Of a stretch of 64,000 nt of DNA, positions 3,221 to 46,042 are shown piece after piece. Position 1 is the stretch's first letter; each line of letters begins with the position of its first letter. A program made the position numbers and the translations under genes. This DNA is from Ruminococcus sp. FMBCY1 (GTDB lineage: Bacteria; Bacillota; Clostridia; Oscillospirales; Acutalibacteraceae): the NCBI RefSeq assembly GCF_023921805.1, contig NZ_CP074197.1, forward strand, positions 1,054,001 to 1,118,000, written 5' to 3'. Under the pieces are notes generated by a model. That model was not told the DNA's origin, did no database searches, and saw only the letters and a list, made by a program, of their open reading frames with translations.

Positions 3221-3466
3221 AAAAATAAAAATCCCTGCGTAATCACTTACGCAGGGACGAATAATATCCGTGGTACCACCCTGATTTTTGCTTAAAGAAG
3301 CAAACACTTCCCGACCTGTAACGGAGTCAGCCGTTGAAACCTACTGTTATTTCAGTCTCACCACTCGGAAGTGAACTTCACGCAATTTCCGCCGCACAAT
3401 GCTTTCAGCCTTGACATCGCTCTCTTTTCGGCATAAAAAACGCTACTCTCTTCGTCAGCGTGTTAT
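3221..3466 (-). promoter_or_regulatory. T-box leader of pheST (tRNA-Phe responsive)
   Basis: The minus-strand leader contains the T-box core (AGGGTGGTACCACGG, about 3268-3283), followed by an intrinsic terminator whose stem is CCCTGCGTAA/TTACGCAGGG (3233-3242 with 3247-3256) with a U-rich tail at 3221-3231. The 5' part has the AGAGAG element of Stem I and a GAAGTTCAC segment. The TTC at 3373-3375 is the likely Phe specifier, which agrees with the downstream gene. Uncharged tRNA-Phe should pair with the T-box bulge and favour the antiterminator. The specifier assignment is an inference from position and gene content. Confidence 0.93.
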
Positions 3467-3473
3467 CATTAGT

Positions 3474-4985: not shown

Positions 4986-5052
4986 CAAAGTGCCACATAT
5001 GAAATTTCAAAGTGCCAAAATGACACTTTTGGAAAAGAAAATGGCACTTTGG
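4986..5052. repeat. direct and inverted CAAAGTGCCA repeats between nnrD and the winged-helix ORF
   Basis: CAAAGTGCCA occurs at 4986-4995 and 5008-5017, and its inverse TGGCACTTTG at 5042-5051. The middle unit also forms an imperfect palindrome with TGACACTTTTGG. This could be an operator for the adjacent winged-helix protein, or decayed linker-coding repeats of its parent gene. Confidence 0.5.
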
Positions 5053-5261
5053 AATTATCTCTTGAAGATTTATCAATCATAAAAGCGTTAAAAGAAAATC
5101 CGCAAATCACTCAAAAGGATTTAGCAGTTAAGGTAGGAAAATCAGAACGCTCTATAAAAAGGAAAACCGTACTTTTACAGGAAAAAGGCTTTATAAAGCG
5201 TGAAAGCGGAAAAAGAAACGGTAAATGGATTGTTTTAATTGACAATTCAAAAGCAAATTAA
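5049..5261 (+). CDS. small winged-helix protein, probably a remnant of an AlbA_2/HATPase_c_4-type regulator
   Basis: The 70-aa product is one winged-helix domain (ITQKDLAVKVGKSERSIKRK, then LQEKGFIKRE). It closely resembles the C-terminal DNA-binding domain of larger Schlafen AlbA_2/HATPase_c_4 proteins. The frame continues upstream without a stop as far as the nnrD TAA, in the same frame, through NDTFGKENGTLE-like sequence resembling the repetitive linker of those proteins. No Shine-Dalgarno sequence lies at a useful distance from TTG 5049 (GGA is 16 nt away). I therefore suspect a truncated remnant rather than a designed small regulator. A terminator follows directly. Confidence 0.5.
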   Translation: MELSLEDLSIIKALKENPQITQKDLAVKVGKSERSIKRKTVLLQEKGFIKRESGKRNGKWIVLIDNSKAN

Positions 5262-5266
5262 ATATT

Positions 5267-5312
5267 GGCAACATAGATAATTAAAGTTATTTATGTTGCC
5301 ATTTATTTTTTG
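5267..5312 (+). terminator. intrinsic terminator after the winged-helix ORF
   Basis: The 14-bp stem GGCAACATAGATAA/TTATTTATGTTGCC has one G-U pair and a 6-nt loop, and is followed by ATTTATTTTTT. Confidence 0.85.
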
Positions 5313-5374
5313 TATAAATAATTTTTGCCTTGCTTTTTACATATAATTAAGCAAAGACAGGAGAGTGGCGTAAT

Positions 5375-5881
5375 ATGAAAAAACTAAGGCTTTTTGTATT
5401 ATTCTTCTTAATGGCAATAATTTTTTCTGCTTGCCAAAGTAATGAAGTTAAAAAAAGTATAATTACAAATTTTAATGCCGATTTTACGGCAAGCAAAGGA
5501 GATTTTTCGGCAGGAGGAAGTATAACGGCAAATGACGGTCAAACCGAACTTGTTTTTAACAAACCGCAAACTGTTGACGGGTTAAAAATCGGCAATGACG
5601 GAGGTGAAATATCCATTGAAATAGATGACTTAACAAGTACTGCAGACGAGGCATATTTGCCAAATGACAATCTGTTGCAACTTATACATTGTGTTGCAAC
5701 AGAGATTTGTGACGGGAGAGAAATTCTTTATCAAAAAAATAATGAATACGATACATATATACTGGAAACTTCAAAGGGCAAATGCACATATTCCGTAGAT
5801 AAAAACGGATATATATTATCTGCGCAAATAAATTCTAAAAATTTTCGTATTGATTTCAGCAATCAATACGAGCTTGGTTAA
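5375..5881 (+). CDS. small exported lipoprotein of unknown function
   Basis: The 168-aa protein begins with a lipoprotein signal peptide (MKKLRLFVLFFLMAIIFSAC) with the lipobox Cys at residue 20, so it should be anchored to the outer face of the membrane. The mature part is beta-rich (repeated short strands such as GDFSAGGSITAND and TYSVDKNGYILSAQI), which would fit a LolA/LppX-like half-barrel, but I cannot confirm the family. AGGAGAG lies upstream of ATG 5375. It is flanked by a terminator upstream and by mazF downstream, and looks like a single-gene unit. Confidence 0.75.
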   Translation: MKKLRLFVLFFLMAIIFSACQSNEVKKSIITNFNADFTASKGDFSAGGSITANDGQTELVFNKPQTVDGLKIGNDGGEISIEIDDLTSTADEAYLPNDNLLQLIHCVATEICDGREILYQKNNEYDTYILETSKGKCTYSVDKNGYILSAQINSKNFRIDFSNQYELG

Positions 5882-6000
5882 TAAAATGAAAACTAAAAGC
5901 CTTCACAATTTTTACGCCCAAAAATATTATATAGTAGCTGTATAAAAACTTTTGGAAAGGGAAAAATATCAGTAATCTAATTATTTGGAGCGTGAAAGTC

Positions 6001-6792: not shown

Positions 6793-7095
6793 GTGGCAGA
6801 AGCTAAAAAAACAGCTCAGGAATTTTCCACCTATAAAGGCAGACCGCTCGTAAGGTGTGGCGATGAGATTTATTACGGCAATATGTCTGAACCATATGTT
6901 ATCAGACTTCAGGTAAAAAGCAAAAACGAGGTAAACGGACTTCAGGTTGCGGATAAAGTTACTGTTCAGTTACTTGCCACTGACCCTGACCTTTCACCAA
7001 GAAAGCAGCTTGTAAAATCAAGCGAAAAGCACGGACTTTTTGTTGCAATGGATATTGCTGACATCTGGCTCGAAAGAGCACTTGCCAACAACTGA
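6793..7095 (+). CDS. small conserved hypothetical protein, co-transcribed with ireB
   Basis: The 100-aa soluble protein has no motif I can assign. It contains short beta-strand-like segments (GRPLVRCGDEIYYG, YVIRLQVKS, DKVTVQLLATD) and a C-terminal helix (GLFVAMDIADIWLERAL). The start is GTG 6793, with AAAGGA about 10 nt upstream. It lies 16 nt after ireB and ends in a strong terminator, so the two form a bicistronic unit. Confidence 0.8.
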   Translation: MAEAKKTAQEFSTYKGRPLVRCGDEIYYGNMSEPYVIRLQVKSKNEVNGLQVADKVTVQLLATDPDLSPRKQLVKSSEKHGLFVAMDIADIWLERALANN

Positions 7096-7107
7096 ATATT
7101 AATGCTG

Positions 7108-7142
7108 AAAAAGCTATCACATTGATTTGTGATAGCTTTTTT
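7108..7142 (+). terminator. intrinsic terminator of the ireB unit
   Basis: Stem AAGCTATCACA/TGTGATAGCTT (11 bp, 6-nt loop) followed by a run of T; the A-rich left flank would let it act in both directions. Confidence 0.88.
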
Positions 7143-7158
7143 GCTTTTTGTAAGAAAT

Positions 7159-7618
7159 CTTTATCAAAAGTTGAAGTAATTTATGGTTTAGCTGATTGCT
7201 TTATCAAGCAATTATAAAAGTTTGGTCGACCTTTTCAAAGGTCGTGGGTGTGGGCAAAGCCCACAAATATTTTCCGTTTATGCAAACTAACGATAGCCAA
7301 ACAGCTTGCTGTTTGGCGGCTTAAGTTCAACGGCTTAACCTATAAATGCGACAGCAACAAGAAAAGCCATTCGATATATAATGAAAAGTTAATTATTTCT
7401 TTTATAAAAGGCTACCGCCTGTTTTAGCAAACTTAGTTTTAGCACGCAAGCAGCATAGCTGTTTGCGCCTGATAAATTGTTATATCGGAAGATTTTTATG
7501 GATGCTGCCCAAACCCGCAATTTTTGAAAAAATTGAGTAAACTTTTTTGTTTTTGGGAGGATAATTTAGCGTTAGCTAAATTTCAATCCCCGACCGACAC
7601 TCCGCTAAACCGTAATTT
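7159..7618 (-). repeat. dispersed hairpin-rich element, copy 1 (inverted orientation)
   Basis: This is the reverse complement of the copies at 23.2 and 27.9 kb. Terminal inverted repeats are AATTTATGGTTTAGC (7178-7192) and GCTAAACCGTAATTT (7604-7618), plus a conserved tail (CTTTATCAAAAGTTGA, 7159-7174). The interior holds a series of short hairpins, for example around GACCTTTTCAAAGGTC and GTGGGCAAAGCCCAC. There is no ORF. It fills the gap between the convergent ireB unit and the GNAT gene and ends 3 nt from the GNAT stop codon. Confidence 0.88.
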
Positions 7619-7621
7619 ATA

Positions 7622-8173
7622 TCAGTTTTCATACATTTCTGTCTTATACAGCTTTGAGAAGAAAAAGCCTGTATAATTTTTCATCATTTCTCTGTATTCT
7701 TCAGGCTTTACTTCTCCGCCAAAGCCCATAGCGTCATACATAACATTGCCCTCTTTAATAGAAATACAGAGTTTTTGGAGTCCGTTTTTCTGATAAAATT
7801 TACTCCTGCTTACACGCTGAGCGTAATTATCCGCATTTTTGTCAAGCTGTTCAAGTGCAAGAAAAAATCTTCTGCCACTGTAAAGTTTATGAATCTCTCG
7901 GAGCACGGCAGAGCCTATTCCTTGCCCTCTTTGACTGTCATCAAGAGCAAAGTAGAAAACATACGAAAGGTCAAGATAATTAATTATATAAATCATTCCG
8001 ACCCATTTTTTCTCACAATAAATTGCGAGAAAATCGACATCTTCTCTTTTGGTTCGTTTTATCATCAAATAAAACGGTGCTCTTTCTTCAGACGGAAAAG
8101 CCGAAAAATACAACTGTTTGATTTGCTTATATTCGGGAAGTTTTTTTGTTACTCTTTTAAATTCAATATTCAT
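7622..8173 (-). CDS. GNAT family N-acetyltransferase
   Basis: The 183-aa protein has the acetyl-CoA-binding motif A (LDDSQRGQGIGSAVL, about residues 76-90) and the preceding beta-strand pattern of the GNAT fold. The substrate is unknown. The C-terminal FYQKNGLQKLCISIKEGNVMY segment is typical of this fold's motif B region. It starts 6 nt after the maf stop and is read in the same direction, so it is probably the last gene of the udg-nitroreductase-maf-GNAT run. The repeat element abuts its 3' end. Confidence 0.88.
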   Translation of the reverse strand: MNIEFKRVTKKLPEYKQIKQLYFSAFPSEERAPFYLMIKRTKREDVDFLAIYCEKKWVGMIYIINYLDLSYVFYFALDDSQRGQGIGSAVLREIHKLYSGRRFFLALEQLDKNADNYAQRVSRSKFYQKNGLQKLCISIKEGNVMYDAMGFGGEVKPEEYREMMKNYTGFFFSKLYKTEMYEN

Positions 8174-23224: not shown

Positions 23225-23685
23225 AAATTATGGTTTAGCGGAGTGTCGGTCGGGCATTGAAAATTAGCTAACGCTAAATTATCCTCCCAAAAAGCAAAAA
23301 GTTTACTCAATTTTTTCAAAAATTGCGGGTATGGGCAGCGCCCATAAAAATCTTCCGATACAACAATTTATCAGGCGCAAACAGCCACGCTGTTTGCGTG
23401 CTAAAACCAAGTTTGTTAAAACAGGCGACAGCCTTTTATAAAAGAAATAATTAACTTTTTTCATTATATAGTGAATGTATTTTCTTTTTGCTTTCGCATT
23501 TTAAGGCATTCACCGTTGTGTTCAAGCCGCCAAACAGCGAACTGTTCGGCTATCGTCAGATTGCGTAAACGGAAAGTATTTGTGGGCTTTGCCCACACCC
23601 ACGACCTTTGAAAAGGTCGACCAAACTTTTATAATTGCTTGATAAAGCAATCAGCTAAACCATAATTATCTCAACCTTTGATAAA
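23225..23685 (+). repeat. dispersed hairpin-rich element, copy 2
   Basis: Terminal inverted repeats AAATTATGGTTTAGC (23225-23239) and GCTAAACCATAATT (23654-23667) match perfectly over 14 nt; the conserved tail TCAACCTTTGATAAA follows (23671-23685). It is collinear and highly similar to copy 3 throughout, including the GCAAACAGC-CAC-GCTGTTTGC and GACCTTTGAAAAGGTC hairpins. There is no ORF. It fills the gap between the convergent PAP2 and ilvE genes. Confidence 0.9.
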
Positions 23686-23698
23686 ACCTCACATATGC

Positions 23699-23728
23699 AA
23701 AAAGTGCCCAAGCAGAATGCTCGGGCAC
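23699..23728 (-). terminator. intrinsic terminator of ilvE
   Basis: The minus strand has an 11-bp stem GTGCCCGAGCA/TGCTTGGGCAC (one G-U pair, 3-nt loop) followed by TTTTT. Confidence 0.9.
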
Positions 23729-23762
23729 AAATTTTTATAATTATATTTTCGATAATATGTAA

Positions 23763-27852: not shown

Positions 27853-28308
27853 AAATTATAGTTTAGCGGAGTGTCGGTCGGGGATTGAAATTTAGCTAAC
27901 GCTAAATTATCCTCCCAAAAGCAAAAAAGTTTACTCAATTTTTTCAAAAATTGCGGGTTTGGGCAGCGCCCATAAAAATCTTCCGATACAACAATTTATC
28001 AGGCGCAAACAGCCACGCTGTTTGCGTGCTAAAACTAAGTTTGTTAAAACAGGCGACAGCCATTAAAAAACCTATATTTTATTAATGAAATAACGAATTT
28101 TTTTCTTATTGCTATCGCTTTTTAAGGCTAACGCCGTTGTGTTCAAGCCGCCAAACAGCGAGCTGTTTGGCTATCGTCAGATTGCATAAACGGAAAGTAT
28201 TTGTGGGCTTTGCCCACACCCACGACCTTTGAAAAGGTCGACCAAACTTTTATAATTGCTTGATAAAGCAATCAGCTAAACCATAATTTATCCCAACTTT
28301 TGATAAAG
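27853..28308 (+). repeat. dispersed hairpin-rich element, copy 3
   Basis: Terminal inverted repeats AAATTATAGTTTAGC (27853-27867) and GCTAAACCATAATTT (28275-28289) match at 14 of 15 positions; the conserved tail CAACTTTTGATAAAG ends at 28308. Short hairpins in order: 27891-27906, 27937-27954, 27961-27971, 28005-28025, 28150-28171, 28202-28218, 28224-28239 and 28255-28272. There is no ORF. It lies between the convergent eno and MetE-like genes, 3 nt from the latter's stop. Confidence 0.9.
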
Positions 28309-28311
28309 AAT

Positions 28312-29424
28312 TTACTTCCAAACTTCTTCTGCAATTTCCTTTACAAGTGCGAGTTTAGCCCACTGCTGTTCTTCGGTGAGTTTGTTGCCGATTTCACAAG
28401 ACGCAAAGCCGCACTGCGGACTAAGGTAAAGTCTGTCAAGCGGAATGTACTTGCTTGCTTCTTTAATTCTTTCGATTACTGTCTGCTTGTCCTCAAGTTT
28501 CGGTGATTTTGTAGTGATAAGACCGAGAACAACTTTTTTGTTGCCGCTTACATATTTTAAAGGCTCAAAGCCGCCTGAACGCTCATCGTCAAATTCAAGG
28601 TAATAAGCGTCAACATTTTCTCTGCCGAACAGTGGCTCTGCAACTGAGTCATATGCACCGCTTGAGAAATATGCGGAATGATAGTTACCTCTGCAAATGT
28701 GTGTTGTAATAACCAAATCTTCAGGCTTGCCCTCAATTGCAAGATTATTTACTTTTAAGAGCTTTTCTTTAATATCTTCAAGGTTGTTTTCTTTGCCGTA
28801 ACGAATTACACTGCCTTCGGCAACGAGTACACCCCAGGTGCAATCGTCAAACTGAATGTTTCTGCAACCTGCGTTATATAAATCGTTAATAACCTTTTTA
28901 TAACCGTTTGCAATGTCAGTAATAAGCTCGTCATCGGTTGCATAGAATTTTCTTGTTGTTTCAATATTTGCAGGAATAATCATCTGCTGGAAAAACTGAG
29001 CAGGTGCAGGAATTGTCTGCTTGGCAACAGTGTTTTCGTCTTCAAAAGTTTTTATAAATTTGTAGTGCTCAACAAACGGGTGGTTGTCAACCGAGATTTT
29101 ACCTGTAAGCCATGTATCGTCAATCAACGCAGGTTCGCCGTGGAATGCTACGCCCTTTTCTGTCTTTTTGTGTGCAACACCGTTAAATCCCCACATAAAG
29201 TCGAGATGCCATGTTGCTCTGCGAAATTCACCGTCTGTTATAACCTTGTATCCTAATTCTTTCTGCTTTTTTACAAGGTCTGTAATGGCTTTGTTTTCAA
29301 TTTCTGTAAGTTCTTCTTTTGTTATATTTCTTTTTTCAAAATCTGCTCTGGCTTTTTTTAGATAGTCCGGTCTTAAAAAACTTCCTACATAGTCAAATCT
29401 GAATGGTACATTATTTTTACTCAT
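28312..29424 (-). CDS. cobalamin-independent methionine synthase family protein (MetE C-terminal domain, YxjG/YxjH-like)
   Basis: The 370-aa protein matches the single-domain MetE C-terminal family. The likely zinc ligands are in place: His and Cys in TTHICRGNYHSAYF near residue 230, and the late Cys in SPQCGFAS near residue 335. The N-terminal FDYVGSFLRPDYLKKAR is typical of the YxjG/YxjH group. Members lack the N-terminal half of MetE and probably transfer methyl groups to homocysteine from a different donor. ATG 29424 has AAGGAGGT 7 nt upstream; the longer frame starts inside that region. No SAM riboswitch is visible upstream. Confidence 0.9.
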   Translation of the reverse strand: MSKNNVPFRFDYVGSFLRPDYLKKARADFEKRNITKEELTEIENKAITDLVKKQKELGYKVITDGEFRRATWHLDFMWGFNGVAHKKTEKGVAFHGEPALIDDTWLTGKISVDNHPFVEHYKFIKTFEDENTVAKQTIPAPAQFFQQMIIPANIETTRKFYATDDELITDIANGYKKVINDLYNAGCRNIQFDDCTWGVLVAEGSVIRYGKENNLEDIKEKLLKVNNLAIEGKPEDLVITTHICRGNYHSAYFSSGAYDSVAEPLFGRENVDAYYLEFDDERSGGFEPLKYVSGNKKVVLGLITTKSPKLEDKQTVIERIKEASKYIPLDRLYLSPQCGFASCEIGNKLTEEQQWAKLALVKEIAEEVWK

Positions 29425-33253: not shown

Positions 33254-33727
33254 ATGTTAAGAGAGGAAGGCTACAAGCCGAGGATACTTGCTGTTGATGA
33301 ATTTGCAATCCATCAAGGACATAGTTACGCAACCTGCGTGATGAATCTGGAGCATGGAGATATCTTATGGTTCGGAAATGGCAGAGCGATGAAGGATTTT
33401 GAAAAATTCTTTAAAGATGTGCCTTCCGACTCCTTGTCAGCAGTCATTGCGGTAGCGATGGACATGAACGCATCTTACAACAAGCTTGTAACAAAGCACG
33501 GATTGAATATGATCGGTTTCATATGCAGTCGCAATTTGGCAGATATGTTCTCGGCGTTGTTCGTCTGGATGAAGCTCGCAGGCTTCAACAACAAGATCAA
33601 GGTCGCTAAACGAATCGGCTACGGTTACCGTGACGACGACTTCTTCTTTACCCTGATTTGCTATCTTTCTATTCCGTCTGTCCGTTACCATCCCGCAAAA
33701 AATCGTGATGAACCTAATATTTACTAA
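33254..33727 (+). pseudogene. ISL3 family transposase remnant
   Basis: The 157-aa ORF contains ISL3-type DDE transposase pieces: ILAVDEFAIHQGHSYATCVM, NLEHGDILWFGNGRAMKDFE and AVAMDMNASYN from the middle, then jumps to the extreme C-terminal NNKIKVAKRIGYGYRDDDFF and LSIPSVRYHP. Full-length members have about 400 aa, so the N-terminal zinc/HTH domain and about 150 central residues, including the last catalytic acid, are missing. TCATCACG at 33240-33247 has its inverse at 33703-33710, possibly vestiges of the element's ends. It is inactive and has no passenger genes. Confidence 0.85.
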
Positions 33728-45885: not shown

Positions 45886-45993
45886 AAATTATGGTTTAAC
45901 GCACAAGTTAAGCGGAATAATTAAAAAATTCAGTTTTAAAGGTTGACCAAACTTTTATAATTGATTGGCAAATCAATTTGCTAAACCATAATT
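45886..45993 (+). repeat. dispersed element, copy 4 (internally deleted, 108 bp)
   Basis: The ends AAATTATGGTTTAAC (45886-45900) and GCTAAACCATAATT (45980-45993) and the right-hand segment GACCAAACTTTTATAATTG match the full copies; about 330 bp of interior are missing. The last hairpin has changed on both sides: ATTGATT/AATCAAT here against ATTGCTT/AAGCAAT in the other copies. It lies between the convergent kinase and ATPase genes. Confidence 0.85.
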
Positions 45994-46006
45994 ACTCAAC
46001 TTTCAT

Positions 46007-46042
46007 ATAAAAACCGCTCTGCACATAAAATACAGAGCGGTT
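46007..46042 (-). terminator. terminator of the P-type ATPase unit
   Basis: 10-bp perfect stem AACCGCTCTG/CAGAGCGGTT (46012-46021, 46033-46042); the minus strand continues with TTTTT. Confidence 0.9.

Follow-up and report, generated by a model that had tools for sequence, protein, structure and literature searches.

A hairpin-rich repeat concentrated at gene 3' ends in a Ruminococcus genome has the features of an ISL3-family MITE

We found that a hairpin-rich repeat in the genome of Ruminococcus sp. FMBCY1 forms a family of at least 87 elements in 2.38 Mb, 34 of them about full length, and that its bias toward the 3' ends of genes is strong genome-wide. The repeat is short and has no transposase ORF, it shares terminal inverted repeats with an IS, and its dispersed copies include some with target duplications; these sequence features lend good support to its classification as a MITE, a non-autonomous element, of the ISL3 IS family. 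The 3'-end bias probably stems from target choice. Taken together, we consider it likely that the repeat is an ISL3-family MITE that would be mobilised in trans, aimed at the tails of terminators, and built around a passenger core.

We examined a window of 64,000 nucleotides, bases 1,054,001-1,118,000 of a single 2,375,995-bp contig, in which a preliminary description had noted four copies with inverted ends and no ORF, located in four of eight convergent gene junctions and in no tandem or divergent gap. All four copies are present, and their cores lie within a few bases of where that description placed them, except in copy 1, where an arm had been counted into the start. The 14-mer GCTAAACCATAATT, with up to two mismatches, occurs 102 + 101 times in the genome against 18 + 10 times for the reversed pattern, bearing out the inverted ends, and the full copies in the window are without any ORF of 80 aa or more. 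The gap count was reproduced with gene calls from a home-made codon-bias caller: the window has eight convergent gaps, four of them occupied, and no copy in any of its 8 divergent or 45 tandem gaps.

Copy 1, on the minus strand (7155-7617), combines a core at 7179-7617 with an ISL3-like arm at 7155-7178, of the form designated A below; the opposite side has no recognisable arm, and the core there is adjoined by TA. It occupies the convergent gap between genes at 6793-7095 (+) and 7622-8173 (-, GNAT acetyltransferase), and a terminator-like hairpin of the intrinsic type (7109-7145, +) lies behind the upstream gene, its stem base 8 nt from the fitted start of the arm. Copy 2 (23226-23690, +), between a PAP2 gene (+) and an aminotransferase class IV gene (-), has a core (23226-23667) with an A arm to the right (about 23668-23690) and, to the left, TA and no recognisable arm; the terminator-like hairpin behind its right-hand gene (23700-23736, -) has its stem base 15 nt from the arm. 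In copy 3 (27854-28312, +), between enolase (+) and a methionine-synthase-like gene (-), the core (27854-28288) is followed by an A arm (about 28289-28312) that extends to the stop codon of the right-hand gene, and no terminator was found between this arm and that gene. Copy 4 (45887-46015, +), between a histidine kinase (+) and a P-type ATPase (-), is an internally deleted core (45887-45993) with a decayed A arm (about 45994-46015) that overlaps, as read by eye, the base of the right-hand gene's terminator-like hairpin. Elsewhere in the window we observed a T-box leader (RF00230, 120.5 bits) at 3250-3467 (-), and bases 5002-5930 share 98.5% identity with the initial 930 bases of Ruminococcus phage NatCom_28775 (PV036440) and may mark the border of a prophage remnant or the flank of an attachment site. 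The closest relatives of one protein encoded in the window come from uncultured Clostridia and Ruminococcus.

A whole-genome search with copy 3, as the preliminary description had proposed, brought out many further copies beyond the window. BLAST with copy 3 gave about 40 long or partial copies (40 of 172 candidates were scored), and a short form, searched at a similar depth of 40 scored candidates in about 170, gave more. From 153 clusters of end and BLAST hits we chose 101, which include 27 single ends with 0-1 mismatch (single ends with two mismatches were left out); these were merged to 81 stretches, of which 80 were used, and the stretch around a 34-bp pair at 2294666 was dropped from the catalogue. 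A profile was then built from 33 long copies, and its matches were merged into the 87 elements. The catalogue is incomplete, as it lacks at least two other short copies, located near 837.1 kb and 1143.6 kb. Between 519.5 and 971.5 kb of the genome (about 450 kb) there is no long copy among the BLAST matches listed, and copies are dense elsewhere.

Tabulating the flanking genes across the genome overturned the idea that the repeat is found only between convergent genes and left a strong convergent and 3'-end bias standing. Among the 85 of 87 elements that could be classified, 46 lie in convergent gaps, 38 in tandem gaps and one, a short fragment, in a divergent gap, with none inside genes. The full-length copies divide into 22 convergent, 12 tandem and 0 divergent (n = 34), and the non-short elements into 37, 23 and 0 (n = 60). 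Unoccupied gaps of at least 30 bp in the same 80 stretches comprise 24 convergent, 142 tandem and 48 divergent ones, and comparing the 60 non-short elements with them by a Fisher test gave p = 1e-14 for the convergent excess and 3e-6 for the divergent absence. In tandem gaps, the median distance of the 23 non-short elements is 54 bp to the stop codon upstream and 133 bp to the start codon downstream.

The core of the repeat is about 440 bp long, with ends AATTATGGTTTAGC...GCTAAACCATAATT, and forms an imperfect palindrome, most long copies also matching the profile on the opposite strand; it contains a series of small hairpins. Its minimum free energy averages -149 kcal/mol over 34 copies, and folding relative to shuffled sequence gave z of -7.6 to -11.2 over both strands in the four of 34 full-length copies that were compared in this way. 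Identity of full-length cores to their consensus is 86-96%, with a pairwise median of 89%, and sizes range from about 484-513 bp for full-length copies with two arms to internally deleted cores of as little as 50 bp. Across the 34 full-length copies the hairpin tips GCCACGC/GCGTGGC, GCGAGC/GCTCGC and GCAAGC/GCTTGC are found in both orientations, suggesting template switching or hairpin processing of DNA. Some short forms (for example, genome 1892685-1892780 and 1656947-1657060) have a second core type, marked by TTAAGC and stretches resembling AATAATTTAAAAATTCAGGTCAAGCC; it has its core ends in common with the long family and some of its members carry arms, so that the repeats seem to be a mixture of several core lineages.

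In many copies the core is flanked by arms, 24 or about 33 bp long, that come in two forms, A and B, and these match the two ends of a resident ISL3 IS, A at 21 of 24 positions and the best B at 27 of 28 (counted by eye). Both arm forms are present in one of two 50-bp mini-forms, A flanking one end and B the opposite end. The resident IS is present in six intact copies of 1387-1396 bp with open frames of 407-410 aa (401 aa from ATG), and its transposase matches PF01610 at 248 bits and NF033550 at 328 bits. On the strength of the shared ends, this element is the likely parent of the MITE. A decayed ISL3-family transposase gene also lies in the window at 33254-33727 (+), with PF01610 matching at genome positions 1087287-1087655 and NF033550 at E 7.5e-23 over profile positions 122-197 of 370.

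Four of the six IS copies have an exact 8-bp target duplication. The search for target duplications around the repeat gave a divided answer: 4 of the 60 long and mid copies have an exact 8-bp duplication at their fitted ends, and the other 56 have no exact one there. Among the 27 MITEs with both ends fitted, exact 8-bp duplications number three, against none in 702 swapped flank pairs. Where detectable, the duplication is 8 bp long and AT-rich in MITE and IS alike. The suggestion of a MITE-like element at 3' ends is thus well supported by the many copies, IS-like ends, 8-bp duplications, size variants and likely parent IS. At genome positions 2219333-2221196, an intact ISL3 copy and a MITE copy are immediate neighbours, both behind one terminator-like hairpin, and a 7-bp repeat, TTTTTCG, is present in shifted position.

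A terminator-like hairpin lies within 30 nt of five of the six IS copies (p = 2e-4), which sit 9-24 nt behind it, and of 11 of 19 MITEs (p = 4e-6), the null being 12.8% for 1500 positions drawn at random from unoccupied gaps. These 19 MITEs were taken from the 60 because both of their ends fit an arm under a loose limit; stricter scoring leaves at least one of them (1324973) without an arm, and the terminator detectors of the separate tests differ somewhat in loop and stem limits. By gap type, the null stands at 40% in convergent, 12% in tandem and 7% in divergent gaps, and at 8.9% of 640 random positions anywhere. Because random positions in convergent gaps already reach 40%, the 8 of 13 MITEs near a terminator there are not distinctive; within convergent gaps the MITE data cannot separate a terminator preference from lack of space, and the tandem gaps contribute only 3 of 6. 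Fitted ends that face a stop codon have a terminator-like hairpin before the element in 40 of 52 cases, a fraction without a null, and in 30 of those 40 the stem base is 2-28 nt from the element. ISL3 elements of two other genera are terminator-adjacent in 3 of 4 cases (G234) and 3 of 10 (G509), with p of about 0.05 for either genus relative to random positions drawn from its own stretches; the copies tested were those with ends that a comparison of several copies could fix, 4 of 5 in G234 and 10 of 10 in G509. ISL3 hits occur in further genomes as well, G054 and G141 among them. The most economical interpretation is a preference of the transposase for terminator tails.

In the account that we favor, the parental ISL3 transposase would move the MITE in trans and would prefer the T-rich tail just downstream of intrinsic terminators. 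Insertion behind terminators would place new copies at gene 3' ends, and hence in convergent gaps or, in a tandem pair, after the first gene; insertions elsewhere would be lost to purifying selection. The host terminator would survive an 8-bp duplication of T-rich sequence undamaged. The palindrome, large and imperfect, with its small hairpins may be a passenger architecture kept alike by gene conversion, for which one locus gives an indication (below), and the core would require no host function. Counting against this account are the 56 of 60 MITEs without an exact 8-bp duplication, the many core sides without an arm, the terminator adjacency in convergent gaps that is not distinctive, a published IS survey that places the ISL3 excess in co-directional gaps (PMC9208149), and the three strain-matched loci, none of which showed a differing insertion. 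A rival that we think unlikely, though it deserves weight, does without target preference: AT-rich DNA would be hit at random, and occupancy of 3' ends would result solely from purifying selection against insertions in genes and promoters. The bias of bacterial MITEs to 3' ends and convergent gaps has been read in this way, as a result of selection, for pneumococcal repeats (PMC3049150), and the 40% chance adjacency to terminators in convergent gaps agrees with it; the parent IS, at 9-24 nt behind terminator-like hairpins in five of six copies, argues against it, as does the closer approach of tandem elements to the upstream stop, although promoter avoidance contributes to the latter. As the parent IS occupies the same place without the structured core, target choice becomes testable apart from both selection and RNA function.

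No DNA match to the repeat was found among 58 related genomes, 35 of the same genus, with at most 11 candidates scored per genome, so the search of relatives that had been proposed came back empty. The exact 22-base core pattern matched no stretch in genome and viral contig collections, in which records of the present genome were perhaps left out, and plasmid sequences gave no match. Four records labeled as phage do match the repeat. Three of them align with the chromosome at 98-99% identity over 1966, 2938 and 6786 bases and look, by this comparison, like bacterial contigs of other strains; the fourth is MT839063. The near-identical strain contigs come from human stool from Mexico. At three loci compared between strains there was no differing insertion, the element being in both strains at each. 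At one locus, the hairpin allele differs between the strains: the second strain has six substitutions within 9 nt relative to the present genome, and the tract matches an allele of another copy in the present genome. Strain differences at this locus amount to 9 of about 187 aligned element bases and 19 of about 2750 bases outside, and together these observations suggest gene conversion between copies at the one locus.

The preliminary description had also entertained a functional structure, such as a bidirectional terminator or a protector of mRNA 3' ends. Local hairpins are paired in 96.9% of 1825 cells, about 57 being unpaired, and conservation by column is 97.7% in stems, 95.4% in unpaired positions nearby and 87% in the centre. 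Double changes occur in 6 of 54 local pairs, a level that none of 500 shuffles reached. Of the nine double-change cells, four come from one copy and four more represent a single G-C to A-U change shared by four copies, and the RNAalifold covariation term is +0.54 kcal/mol, that is, not favourable, with no net covariation support. We accordingly set aside covariation as proof of RNA function, the double changes being too thin. As far as tested, the proposed role is unsupported, given that facing genes keep their own terminator at 40 of 52 tested ends, the scarcity of compensatory change, and interiors whose similarity can be explained by gene conversion between copies. From the sequence data, nothing requires a terminator or mRNA-protecting role, and a host function is unproven.

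Two further explanations start from the structure of the core. It might have been exapted as a 3'-end structure, its palindrome giving either neighbour a similar hairpin-rich 3' UTR that could serve as an orientation-independent terminator, an RNase barrier or a block to transcription collision, like REP/BIME. The extreme foldability on both strands, the higher conservation of stem columns, the double changes beyond all shuffles and the near absence from divergent gaps would fit such a role, as would those ends at which no host terminator was found, such as the right side of copy 3. We nevertheless rate it as quite improbable: compensatory change is thin and comes mostly from one copy and one repeated change, some 57 cells are unpaired and the covariation term is unfavourable, the facing genes mostly retain their own terminator, apparent copy-to-copy conversion can explain the similar interiors, and the parent IS is placed likewise without a core. 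Group IIC introns insert behind terminators, and an ORF-less member of that class would be alike in size, structure and position. We regard this as extraordinarily unlikely, since terminal inverted repeats and 8-bp target duplications are features of DNA transposons and no domain V or group II Rfam match was present in the window; cmscan at gathering thresholds matched no known RNA family there besides the T-box.

The arms bear on the history of the core. By one scoring, the 68 sides of full-length copies comprise 36 with a recognisable arm, 9 doubtful ones and 23 that resemble random DNA in score, three of the 68 being mis-scored owing to neighbouring copies or an IS; 16 of 34 copies are one-armed, at least two of them mis-scored. 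TA adjoins the core on 26 of 36 armed sides and, among unarmed sides whose core end is good, on 14 of 19; the chance level of about 10% is an estimate without a control run. That unarmed sides keep TA and cores remain 86-96% like the consensus suggests possible mobility of the core on its own as well. Either such movement of bare cores at TA takes place too, or arms decay while cores stay alike. A nested origin, which we hold to be doubtful, would make the core (TIR AATTATGGTTTAGC, target TA) an independent MITE, served by a TA-specific transposase and inserted into an ISL3 MITE, after which some copies would have moved with ISL3 arms and others as bare core. It would account for the sharp core boundary at TA and for unarmed flanks that score as random intergenic DNA and still keep TA. 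In a sister species, G001, a core end AATTATAGTTTAGC, usually after TA, is joined to other outer repeats (52 sites against 4 in the control), which favours a modular, nested history. Set against this, the genome has no IS630-type transposase (PF13358), no intact 'empty' ISL3 palindrome was found in the stretches searched, one of the two 50-bp forms retains both ISL3 arms, and one-armed copies fit neither mode cleanly. An independent IS630-type parent was rejected for want of a PF13358 match in the genome, and empty ISL3 palindromes as landing sites for the core were rejected after a fuzzy search of the stretches gave only chance-looking matches.

The repeat of G001 (for example, L240-L259 and L266-L275) is a different palindromic family, with core end AATTATAGTTTAGC and outer ends near CGCTTCATAAGTTT. 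TTTT lies at most 14 nt upstream of 61 of its 74 outer ends (no control). With genes on both sides (n = 20), 15 copies are tandem, 4 convergent and 1 divergent, and 12 more lie at edges; many contigs of the G001 assembly end in this repeat.

Returning to the ISL3-directed account, a broader form of it can be offered tentatively, as a conjecture that we would not yet call probable. ISL3-type transposases of gut Clostridia may be terminator-homing, recognising the end of a transcription unit (hairpin and T-tract, perhaps an extruded hairpin or a paused polymerase) and inserting behind it, which would open a host-safe 3' niche for IS and MITEs; the palindromic MITE would then be an orientation-independent 3'-end module, constantly refreshed by gene conversion. 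If targeting of terminators holds, it would give a common IS family a safe-harbour target, of use in annotation and perhaps in engineering the genomes of gut Clostridia. A large IS survey records ISL3 as over-represented in co-directional rather than convergent gaps (PMC9208149), a result that fits only partly. We found no report of terminator targeting by ISL3 elements or MITEs in the titles and opening lines of abstracts of open-licence PMC literature, and 'ISL3' is absent from the main text of a MITE review (PMC10969869).

Convergent-gene bias of bacterial MITEs is already published; new here is an ISL3-type, terminator-adjacent family, and one with no DNA match in the 58 relatives. Compared with ISL3-family IS (NF033550, PF01610), the MITE is alike in both ends, which match its arms, and in its 8-bp AT-rich target duplications, and differs in having no transposase gene, a palindromic core of about 440 bp in its place, and far more copies. 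REP/BIME elements are likewise palindromic and intergenic, and they lie at gene 3' ends. REPs, however, are units of 20-40 bp in two large super-families, as described in PMC3733652, whereas the present element has IS-type arms and 8-bp TSDs. QMITE2, Chunjie, BrickBuilt and ERIC, as the review describes them (PMC10969869), are alike, by description, in being under about 500 bp and intergenic, with TIRs and size variants; QMITE2 is stated there to lie mostly in gene 3' UTRs. A parallel in placement exists in pneumococcus, for which RUP, BOX, SPRITE and IS elements are described as over-represented between convergent genes (PMC3049150): RUP, BOX and SPRITE are also short, non-coding, strongly folded repeats with a significant convergent-gap excess, but they have other parents, and SPRITE is itself terminator-like, whereas the present element sits behind the terminators of its host.
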